NCBI RefSeq assembly: GCF_027023865.1
Contig: NZ_JALVUC010000014.1
Coordinates: 1-64,000, forward strand
DNA from: Thermococcus sp.
GTDB lineage: Archaea; Methanobacteriota_B; Thermococci; Thermococcales; Thermococcaceae
Length of the DNA stretch: 64,000 nucleotides
Reading direction: 5' to 3'
In this document: piece after piece, positions 21,179 through 35,927 of the stretch
How the letters are laid out: the number at the start of each line of letters is the position of its first letter
How positions within the stretch are numbered: the stretch's first letter is position 1
Made by a program: the position numbers and the translations under genes
The notes under the pieces: model-generated
Databases searched by the model: none
The model's input: only the letters and a program-made list of their open reading frames with translations
What the model was told of the DNA's origin: nothing

Positions 21179-22702
21179 TTACCCATTTCTCCAGCGTAGG
21201 AGCAGTGGTAAGAACGCGATGGGGATTACCACCGCTGGACCGCAGATCGAACCTTCTGGTTTCTCTTTCAACGACTTTAACGGCTTGATCACTATAGGAA
21301 TGTCCCCTTTGGTGGCTTTAACCCCAACCCGCCCTTTGAAAGTCTTTACAGCAACTTTACTAGACTTCACGATGACCATGGGGGCCAAGTGAATATGAGC
21401 GGGTTCAACGGTTACCTTAAAGGGATACACCTTAAATGCTTTACCATTGATTACATCTCCAAAGCTCGAAACGATGGCCAAATCCCTGAACGTTCCAATG
21501 CTTCCGTTTAACGCAACGAGACGCCATACTGAGATGAAAGAATTCCCCATAACAGCCATTCCAGAGGGTGCTACAAACGCTTCGGACTCCATTCCTGTGC
21601 CGTTCCCAACGAGAACAAAGCTGCTCTTAACGTTTCCATGTGTGTCCGTTTTCACGACTTCGTAGGTTGTGTCGATCCCAACACAATCAAGGCGGAACGC
21701 TTCAATAATAGCTGGCTGAAAGAAGAGGTTGCCGTTCGATAGGATCAGAGACCGTGTAGGCTCAGTAGACGAGGTACTGACGCTCCTCAGGCTAATGTTT
21801 TGCCCCGTTTCGGTACACTCCTTTATGGGGATGAGACGATAGAGTTTTGACCAGAGGACTGCGTTGTTCTCTATTTCCCCAAGAACGGTTCCGTTTGATG
21901 AACCACCAAGGAAGTAGATGGCTTCCCCGGTACTTGCGGTTGATTTAACGAAGAAGCCCCTTAGGTTGGTTTTGAATTCCTTTACACTTATCACTTCTCC
22001 GTTGGAGCCGAGCCTGGCGTAGTAGTATCTTTTCCCTGAGTCGTGGAGTATCAGATAATAACCCTTTGCAAGTTCTCCAGCCCCCACACTGTAAAGCTCC
22101 CTTGGGCCATGAACGATCCAGTAATCCCTCGCCCACAGAACTTCCCCGCTTCGTCGGTCGAGGGCCAGAACGAGCGGTTTGGAAACGTCTATTCAGTTTA
22201 TGTCGTATTCAACGTGGGTTGTGATTAGGATCCTGTCCCCAGTCTGAACTGCATCGTCAACGAAAGGTATCCATCCTGGACTCACGTTGAGGAGATAATC
22301 TTTCGACCACACGAGCGTTCCATTTTCACTAAGCTCAACGACCCACAGGTCGGTGTGGTTCCCATTCCAGTCACGCCCGATGAGCAGTGTTGAACCGTTG
22401 GCGGTTGCATAGAGGATCCTTGGTGAGTGGAGAAAGTCCCCTTTAACAGCTTCAACCCAGTTAACGGAGCCGTTGCTCTTCAGGTACACAACCCAGGCTC
22501 CCGGAACCACAGGTTTCCCAGTGGAGGTCATGTTGAACGGAACTACGATTACGAATCCATTCTTTCCATCCGCTCCAACGCCGGCTATGGGGTTGGGATA
22601 AGTGATCGTTCCGTTACCCGGTGCCCATATAATGACAGAGCCTTTAACCAATCCTGCCACGAATAGTAACAGCAAGACAAGAAGAGTAACCCTCTTCAGC
22701 AT
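21179..22702 (-). pseudogene. CGP-CTERM surface protein gene split by one in-frame TGA
   Basis: Two open stretches in the same frame (22702-22196 and 22192-21179) are separated only by a TGA at 22193-22195; joined they encode about 507 residues. The first part has a signal peptide (MLKRVTLLVLLLLFVAGLVKG) and beta-propeller-like repeats (SNGSVNWVEAVKGDF, ENGTLVWSKDYLL). The second continues them (SGEVLWARDYWIV, NAVLWSKLYRL) and ends with ICGPAVVIPIAFLPLLLRWRNG, a CGP-CTERM sorting tail seen in Thermococcales surface proteins. The ATG follows GGGGAT. The gene looks otherwise intact, so the mutation is recent, a sequencing error, or read through. The truncated 169-residue product would be secreted but unanchored. 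Confidence 0.8.
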
Positions 22703-22759
22703 GGTATATCCCCAAATACGAATCAGCAGGAAAAATAAAAAGTTTTTCATGAAGGAATA

Positions 22760-32579: not shown

Positions 32580-32623
32580 GATTCCGTTCAGATAGGGATT
32601 GTAAAGTTTAGGAGATGATCGCC

Positions 32624-33676
32624 ATGGCCGAAAAGATGCCAGCCATAATGAAAACCAAGCCCGCCTACGGTGCCGAACTGGTTGAGGTTGACGTCCCCAA
32701 GCCCGGTCCGGGAGAGGTTCTCATAAAGGTTCTCGCGACGACTATCTGCGGAACCGACCTGCACATCTACGAGTGGAACGAGTGGGCGCAGAGCAGGATC
32801 AAGCCGCCCCAGATCATGGGACACGAGGTGGCTGGAGAGGTCATAGAGGTCGGTCCCAACGTTGAAGACCTCCAGGTTGGTGACTATATAAGCGCGGAGA
32901 CACACATCGTCTGCGGTAAATGCTACACCTGCCGGCACAACCGTTACCACGTCTGCCAGAACACCAAGATATTCGGCGTTGACATGGATGGCGTTTTCGC
33001 CGAGTACGCTATCGTTCCAGTCAGGAACGCCTGGAAGAACCCGAAGGGTATGAAGCCGGAGCATGCCGCCCTTCAAGAACCCCTAGGAAACGCTGTTGAT
33101 ACCGTCTTGGCTGGCCCAATAGCGGGAAGGAGCACCCTCATCACAGGAGCAGGTCCGCTTGGACTCCTCGGGATAACCGTCGCGAAGGCGAGTGGTGCCT
33201 ATCCCGTAATTGTGAGCGAACCGAGTGAGTACAGAAGAACGCTCGCCAAGAAGGTCGGTGCCGACTACGTCATCAACCCGTTTGAGGAAGACCCAGTTAA
33301 AGCAGTAATGGACATAACTGATGGCGCCGGCGTTGAGGTCTTCCTTGAGTTCAGTGGGGCACCGAAGGCCCTCGAGCAGGGCTTAGCGGCGACTACCCCG
33401 GGAGGGAGGGTTTCCCTGCTCGGCCTTTACCCGAGGGATGTCACGCTCGACTTCAACAACCTTATAATCTTTAAGGCCCTTGAAATTCACGGCATAACCG
33501 GCAGGCACCTCTGGGAGACATGGTACACCGTCTCGAGCCTTATCCAGAGCGGAAAGCTTAAGCTCGACGAGGTCATAACCCACAGATACAACGGCTTTGA
33601 TAAATTTGAGGAAGCTTTTGAACTGATGCGCGCCGGCAAGACCGGAAAGGTCGTCTTCTTCCCGCACAAAAAGTGA
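32624..33676 (+). CDS. tdh: L-threonine 3-dehydrogenase
   Basis: A 350-residue zinc-dependent medium-chain dehydrogenase that oxidises L-threonine to 2-amino-3-ketobutyrate with NAD+. Length matches the studied Thermococcus and Pyrococcus enzymes. Catalytic zinc ligands appear in [12 protein letters not shown] and MGHEVAGEV; the structural zinc loop is [15 protein letters not shown]; the NAD-binding fold has [10 protein letters not shown]. The reading frame begins at 32615, but the ATG at 32624 after GGAGATGAT gives the usual N-terminus ([10 protein letters not shown]). A T-rich tract (TTTCTTTTTCTTTT, 33681-33694) follows as terminator. Confidence 0.95.
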
Positions 33677-33739
33677 GGGATTTCTTTTTCTTTTCCAGTT
33701 CTGGCGAAGGCATTAAATATCAAAAACCCAACTCTTAAA

Positions 33740-33942
33740 ATGGGTGTGAAAATGGAAGGGGTTGAGTACATATACGATGAACATGGGCGAATTAAGGGGG
33801 TCATAGTACCCCCTGAGCTGTGGGAGCGTTTGAAAGGCTGGCTTTTGAACCTTCCAAGTACAGGGGTATATACCGAAACAAAAAGGGCCTCAAAGAGAGC
33901 CTGCGGGAGCTGAAGGAGGGATGGGAGGGGGATTTCTGGTAG
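33740..33942 (+). pseudogene. vapB: frameshifted VapB-type antitoxin gene
   Basis: From the ATG at 33740 (or 33752) the frame reads VEYIYDEHGRIKGVIVPPELWERL, a common Thermococcales antitoxin start. Near 33838-33846 the sense shifts to another frame, which reads FEPSKYRGIYRNKKGLKESL and ends with EGWEGDFW at the TAG in 33940-33942. One base has been lost, or two gained. Repaired it would be about 67 residues and overlap the toxin start by 22 bases, the normal layout. The antitoxin is probably non-functional, like its partner. Confidence 0.8.
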
Positions 33943-34337
33943 ACACAAACATCCTCATCTACTACCTCGCCGATGCTCTACCCCGTGAGGAGTTACTGAG
34001 GAGTTACCGAAAATTGAGGAAATTCTTCGCGAGAGCTTCAACATCTCGATAATAACGAAAATAGAGTTCTTGGGCTGGAAAGGGCACACTCCGGAGGGAT
34101 TCGAAAAGTCCAAGGAATTCATTAGCTTCGCCCATGTAATACCTCTAACCGATGAAATAGCAGACCTTGTCATCGAATTAAGGAGAAGGAAGAAGATGAA
34201 ACTTCCAGATGCAGTTATAGCCGCAACAGCCCTAAGATATGGTCTCACACTCATAACGAGGAACGTTGAGGACTTTTGAGGACTTCAAAAGTATCGATGG
34301 ACTTGAGATTTACAACCCGTTCGGGAGGGTTGACTAG
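33921..34337 (+). pseudogene. vapC: VapC-type PIN-domain toxin gene broken by two tandem duplications
   Basis: The start MGGGFLVDTNILIYYLAD is that of a PIN RNase. An 11-base unit (TGAGGAGTTAC) is repeated at 33986-33996 and 33997-34007, shifting the frame; the correct frame then reads LPKIEEILRESFNISIITKIEFLGW through LPDAVIAATALRYG and LITRNVEDF. A second, 10-base unit (TTGAGGACTT) is repeated at 34266-34275 and 34276-34285 and shifts it again, after which KSIDGLEIYNPFGRVD ends at 34337. Removing both duplicates restores exactly 131 residues with all four acidic PIN residues (D8, E, D, D). The gene is inactive as it stands. Confidence 0.88.
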
Positions 34338-34424
34338 AAAAGGTAGCTCGCTCTTGTTCTTAGTCTTAAAACTTACCGCAATTCTCTTAAGTTCTCCCTC
34401 TCATTCACACCGGGAGGTGGCATC

Positions 34425-35927
34425 ATGGAGCTAAGCTACCAGGAGAAGCTCACGCTCATAAAGCTCGGCGAGGATAAAAAGCTCAAATTTGAAGAACTCG
34501 TTCGAAAGACCGGCCTCGACCAGGTCGCCGTCATGCGCTCTGTTCTTGGACTTCAGGCGAAGGGACTTGCAAAGCTCCACGAAAAGAGCGAGAAGGTTGC
34601 TGTTCTAACGGAAACCGGAAAAAATTACTCGGAGGTAGGTCTTCCTGAGTGGAGAGCTCTTGAGGTTCTTAAGGTGAAAGGAAAGGTTACACTCAACGAC
34701 CTCTCCGGAGTTCTCAGCGAGGACGAGCTTAAGCCGATAGTCGGTCTCCTCAGAAAGGAGGGCTGGGTGAACGTCAGAAAGGAAAACGGTAAGCTTATCC
34801 TTGAGATAACTGAAAAGGGCCTCAAAGCAGAGGAGAGGCCGATAGACAGGGCTTTGAAACTCCTTGCAGAGAGGAAAACCGTCCCGGTTGATGAGATTCA
34901 GAAGCTCGTTCCGGTTAGAGAACTTAAGAGGAGGAAGATAGCCGAGGAGGACACCGTAACCGAGAGGACGGTTGAGATAACCCCCGCCGGTGAGAAGATC
35001 GTCGCTAAGGGCATTGAGCTGAAGGAGCAGGTATCCGTTCTAACCCCAGGACTCATAAAATCCGGTAAGTGGAAGGAAGTCGAGTTCAGGCGCTTCGATA
35101 TTAAAGCCCCCGTGAAGAGGCTTTACCCCGGCAAAAAGCAGCCGTACAGGGCTTTCCTTGACAAGATAAGGAGAAGACTAATCGAGATGGGCTTCATCGA
35201 GATGACATCGGAGAGCATGATTGAGACCCAGTTCTGGAACTTCGATGCACTATTCCAGCCCCAGAACCATCCCGCCCGCGAGTGGACTGACACCTACCAG
35301 CTCAAGTACCCGAAGAGCGGCTACCTACCTGAGGGGGGGCTCGTTGAGAGAGTTAAAGAAACACACGAGCGGGGCCTTGCCGGCTCGCGCGGCTGGGGCT
35401 ACGTTTGGAGCCCTGAGAGAGCAATGCTCTTAATGCCCCGCGCCCATGGAACGGCCCTCGACGCGAGGCAGCTTTCCAGCGAGGTTGAAATTCCCGGGAA
35501 GTACTTCACGATTCAGCGCGTTTTCAGGCCCGACGTTTTAGACAGAACACACCTCATAGAGTTCAACCAGATAGACGGCTTCATCGTTGGGGAGGATTTA
35601 ACCTTCAGACACCTCTTAGGAATCCTCAAGCGCTTTGCGGTGGAGATAGCTGGGGCGAAAAAAGTCAAGTTCCTGCCCGATTACTATCCGTTCACAGAGC
35701 CGAGCGTTCAGATGAGCGCCTACCACCCGGAGCTTGGCTGGGTTGAGTTCGGTGGGGCTGGAATATTCCGCGAGGAGATGACCAAAGCTCTCGGAATCGA
35801 TGCGCCGGTAATAGCGTGGGGAATAGGAATCGACAGACTAGCGATGTTCAAGCTCGGAATAGATGACATCCGCTACCTCTTCAGCTACGATTTGAGGTGG
35901 CTGAGGGAAGCGAGGCTGGTCTGGTGA
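34425..35927 (+). CDS. pheS: phenylalanyl-tRNA synthetase alpha subunit
   Basis: A 500-residue archaeal PheS. The N-terminal ~200 residues are winged-helix-like tRNA-binding domains ([22 protein letters not shown]); the class II catalytic core includes [22 protein letters not shown] (motif 2 region), [21 protein letters not shown] and [15 protein letters not shown]. It charges tRNA(Phe) as an alpha2beta2 enzyme with PheT. The ATG follows GGGAGGTGGCATC. pheT starts ten bases downstream, so the subunits are made from one mRNA. Confidence 0.95.

Follow-up and report, generated by a model that had tools for sequence, protein, structure and literature searches.

A probable recent pseudogene of a VapBC-type toxin-antitoxin module in the tdh-pheS gap of a Thermococcus genome

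The window analyzed here, a 64,000-nucleotide stretch of a Thermococcus genome, harbors the genes tdh (32615-33676) and pheS (34425-35927), between which lie the remains of an antitoxin gene, vapB (33752-33942, + strand), and of a PIN-domain toxin gene similar to vapC (33921-34337, + strand), both delimited by alignment with homologues and, for vapC, by its reading frames. The tail of vapB, which ends at 33942, overlaps the start of vapC at 33921, a layout shared by intact homologues. An earlier note, made from the sequence alone, had described a VapBC pair inactivated by two short tandem duplications in the toxin gene and by a separate frameshift in the antitoxin gene, a description that the homologue alignment supports.

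By comparison with homologues (MEGVEY...), the start of vapB is probably at 33752 and not at 33740. Its 5' part (33752-33913) remains in frame to approximately 33836-33846 and beyond that runs in a shifted frame into a stop at 33913. The 3' part (FEPSKYRGIY...GDFW, 33847-33942), recognized from an open reading frame at 33820-33942 and from the alignment, is out of frame with the vapB start. At the junction (33836-33846), the window is one base short of those homologues whose vapB extends over the site, which bears out the independent antitoxin frameshift proposed near 33840. On the most natural reading, a T run has probably been shortened here by one base, although the exact base cannot be fixed. 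As predicted from these frames, the broken vapB would keep its N-terminal half and lose its C-terminal part, the region by which VapB proteins usually bind the toxin. Upstream of vapB, a conserved promoter-like stretch (GGCGAAGGCATTAAATA, 33703-33719, + strand), whose function is suggested by alignment, matches GCGAAGG.GTTAAATA upstream of homologous vapBC loci at other genomic sites. Because this TTAAATA element aligns with those of the homologues, it seems to have moved together with the module as its own promoter.

The toxin gene is broken twice, in both cases at a tandem repeat, as the earlier note had recognized. The 5' part of vapC (33921-34052) is read in its native frame up to a perfect, frame-breaking tandem duplication of an 11-bp unit (TGAGGAGTTAC, two copies, 33986-34007, + strand), after which the frame is shifted and ends at a stop at 34052. 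The middle part (34008-34279) lies in the shifted frame and includes a match to the PIN family at 34103-34264 (PF01850, 36.4 bits for a cut-off of 23.6). It ends inside the second duplication, a perfect repeat of a 10-bp unit (TTGAGGACTT, two copies, 34266-34285, + strand) that creates a stop at 34277-34279 and cuts off the 3' end of the gene (34286-34337), identified by alignment with intact homologues. The positions and unit lengths claimed for both repeats are exact. The second duplication also forms a 7-bp palindrome spanning the repeat (CTTTTGA-GGACT-TCAAAAG, 34273-34291).

When the window sequence is read in the columns of the intact homologues, a complete VapC-like protein is obtained, of a length that fits the 131 residues predicted earlier for the PIN protein behind the lesions. 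The four acidic residues of the PIN domain are kept, namely the Asp in FLVDTN, the Glu in KIEFLG, the Asp in LPDA and the Asp in NVEDF. They are spread over more than one reading frame: the first fragment retains one acidic residue, the middle open reading frame as listed (34070-34279) is without the Glu and without the last strand of the domain, and the C-terminal piece is in a different frame from the middle one. Because no remaining frame carries all four residues, no translation product of the broken vapC should have a complete active site, and no nuclease should be made. Programmed frameshifting was considered as a means of rescue and rejected, given three breaks at unrelated sites.

Assignment to the VapBC family comes from the intact relatives as well as from the fragment. 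Intact homologous toxins match PF01850 with 47.9 and 51.4 bits (E 2.5e-12) and the solved VapC structure 7by2 with an E value of 1.7e-12, and they score below the curated NCBIfam cut-offs for VapC. For the antitoxin, only sub-threshold matches to the RelB-like model PF18506 and to phd-type models were obtained, and no family threshold was reached, even by intact relatives. Like type II VapBC modules, the locus comprises a small antitoxin gene that overlaps a PIN toxin gene of 131-134 codons (PF01850), but unlike them it has both genes frameshifted. Neither frame is intact, and with its three frame breaks the locus is a pseudogene of the VapBC family, not a working member. Solitary toxins and antitoxins have been reported to be common, and pseudogenes to be hard to detect (PMC2701414). 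A search of a literature library found no paper on VapBC pseudogenes in Thermococcus.

Homologous loci were used to determine in which lineage the lesions arose. When 94 Thermococcaceae genomes were searched at the DNA level, related vapBC loci came up in 24 other genomes, and the window was aligned with 19 of these loci, 16 of which have complete vapB and vapC frames (L003-L016, L019 and L022). As the second copy of both units is absent from all 19 aligned loci, and as the homologues that cover the vapB deficit site have the additional base, all three lesions are derived in the lineage of the window. Homologues that carried the same duplications and yet were intact would have spoken against the original observation; there are none among these 19. 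A search of genome contigs returned six loci, none of them from the same species.

Decay is not limited to the window, since related remnants are found in other genomes of the family, as is known for decayed or solitary chromosomal toxin-antitoxin systems. Locus L017 has a nonsense codon, L018 and L020 have indels, and L021 and L023-L027 carry deletions or are remnants. Related copies are broken independently in other species. What sets the present copy apart from the other broken copies scanned is the presence of two perfect short tandem duplications. In L018 (genome G071), a 4-bp expansion of an AT run (L018:1501-1560) disrupts the vapB start (most of the frame could be regained from a GTG start), and vapC has lost one base near its end. 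The genome of the window itself contains a second frameshifted gene of the PIN/VapC type (L039:1496-1943; contig C19, about 88171-88618), which near L039:1659 lacks two bases relative to three homologues, one of which, L176, also has deletions.

A sequencing or assembly artefact, in which the pair would be intact in the organism and both the repeats and the missing base would be errors, deserves consideration since the genome is a draft of 26 contigs, sequences of homopolymer runs often come out one base short through error, three lesions within 600 bp are unusual, and the remaining coding sequence looks alive. Nevertheless, perfect tandem duplications of 10-11 bp are not typical of sequencing error, and of 109 open reading frames matched from two related species, 107 run their full length in the window, indicating that frameshift errors are infrequent in this assembly. 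A survey of tandem repeats that covered 1.08 Mb of the 1.92-Mb genome also argues against this explanation, as the two vapC duplications are the sole perfect repeats found there with a period of 9-66 not divisible by three. An artefact is therefore very improbable. The same 1.08 Mb contains frame-keeping repeats, namely 28 nine-mers and five twelve-mers, and 872 kb sampled from two other genomes yielded six perfect non-triplet repeats of period 9-66, several of them outside open reading frames or at their ends. The occurrence of both duplications in one 0.4-kb gene that exhibits few other signs of decay is mildly surprising, representing more clustering than simple neutral decay suggests. Elsewhere in the window (21179-22750), two open reading frames of 302 and 185 aa, of which the second has a signal-like start, are found between that of an L21e-like ribosomal protein and a downstream one of 386 aa, and in genome G027 an open reading frame spans this junction without them; the two might be one split gene.

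The coding sequence retains the marks of selection. The branch of the window on the vapC tree (IQ-TREE) is long (0.31), and its differences from L003 are distributed over first, second and third codon positions in the ratio 16:12:54, close to the 12:10:55 of the live pair L007-L003. Pairwise dN/dS values for the window vapC range from 0.05 to 0.13. Eleven of its residues are absent from ten relatives, and the same count for those relatives is 0-9; the excess of residues unique to the window is thus small at most. Because the codon-position pattern is still that of a live gene and all four acidic residues are kept, vapC was maintained by selection through most of its past, and its inactivation is recent.

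How the module reached its present site is suggested by synteny. Among 29 relatives examined, 24 have tdh directly upstream of pheS, and in 21 of these the gap is 72-151 bp long and empty; G067 and G027, the two nearest by pheS, are among them. The remaining three carry other inserts there: G058 and G020 an antitoxin/RelE-like pair, and G068 an unrelated gene. The tdh-pheS gap (33677-34424 in the window, compared with loci L051, L053 and L073) is an insertion site whose small inserts vary from one related species to another. Since the gap is short and empty in most syntenic relatives and differently occupied in the others, acquisition of vapBC at this site would be the simplest account. Neither tdh nor pheS was found within the fetched flanks of homologous vapBC loci in other genomes. 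A plasmid search for a vapC donor returned only bacterial VapC proteins of less than 60% identity, and no donor plasmid. In G020, the RelE gene in the gap appears by eye to be one base shorter near its end.

By what process the duplications arose is less straightforward than had been assumed. Slippage, put forward in the earlier note, next to templated duplication, as the evident mechanism, is doubtful: neither unit shares a single terminal base with its flank, and slippage between flanking direct repeats was rejected on this ground. Terminal homology of zero for both units, together with their similar lengths and an ungapped alignment that matches eight bases, including TGAGGA (found in about 0.2% of random pairs, a chance of about 0.002 judged after the fact), might point instead to footprints of staggered cutting and fill-in, or of visits by mobile elements that left target duplications. 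However, no element was found at the duplications, nor any inverted repeat of at least 9 bp; no other such footprints occur in the 1.08 Mb surveyed, and the units differ in length (10 and 11 bp), which makes footprints of this kind most unlikely. The eight-base likeness is a lead only. That a homology-free process, such as fill-in after staggered cuts at TGAGGA[G/C]TT-like sites, generates 10-11-bp duplications in this organism and struck vapC twice would be a long shot.

Ordinary spontaneous mutation remains the preferred origin. In Sulfolobus acidocaldarius, tandem duplications longer than 5 bp accounted for 13 of 163 spontaneous pyrE mutations (8%), and tract frameshifts for 66% (PMC7785828). 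Since this spectrum includes both classes of lesion, duplications combined with a one-base tract loss are an ordinary outcome in a thermophilic archaeon. The pyrE duplications resemble those of vapC as a regular class of loss-of-function mutation (PMC7785828), but they come from another organism under laboratory selection, whereas the present allele is a natural one in which a single gene was hit twice. Most likely, the duplications persisted because frameshifts in a dispensable module met no counterselection.

In which order the genes were lost can be approached through relatives in which only one is broken. The toxin is affected in each of them, by a nonsense codon in L017 and by internal deletion or truncation in L021 and L024, and the antitoxin frame is complete in all three. 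No intact toxin with a clearly broken antitoxin was found among relatives with a single broken gene. The earlier guess that the toxin died first and the antitoxin after is plausible: it fits both the standard logic of toxin-antitoxin systems and these toxin-only lesions. As there are only three cases, and as vapC is twice as long a target as vapB, the relatives lend it weak backing.

It had also been proposed that the locus might be switchable. A phase-variable locus that reverts through loss of repeat copies is conceivable in that a tandem repeat of two copies could in principle lose one of them and that the hidden reading frames are well preserved. However, each repeat has only two copies here and a single one in every homologue, and reversal would require three separate events, as both duplications and the antitoxin base must revert independently; a toxin restored by itself would have no antitoxin to counter it, to the detriment of the cell. 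A switch is thus not a reasonable reading, and phase variation is hardly credible.

Altogether, the locus is very probably an ordinary and recent pseudogene, if a little unusual in how it was damaged, derived from an acquired type II VapBC-like module that was inactivated by the two duplications in its toxin gene and by the one-base contraction in its antitoxin gene. A module with its own promoter would have entered the tdh-pheS gap and, as its codon pattern shows, evolved for long as a working gene pair. The two short duplications and the contraction then inactivated it, most likely with the toxin dying first and the antitoxin next, and the duplications would most likely be ordinary spontaneous mutations that survived in a dispensable module. 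The locus is a clean, dated example of the death of a chromosomal toxin-antitoxin system in Thermococcales, acquired into a variable gap, functional for a while and then frameshifted. Its unusual side is mutational, as the only two frame-breaking perfect repeats of 9-66 bp in more than half of the genome sit in one small gene, without homology at their ends, and they may provide a small hint on duplication mutagenesis in hyperthermophiles.
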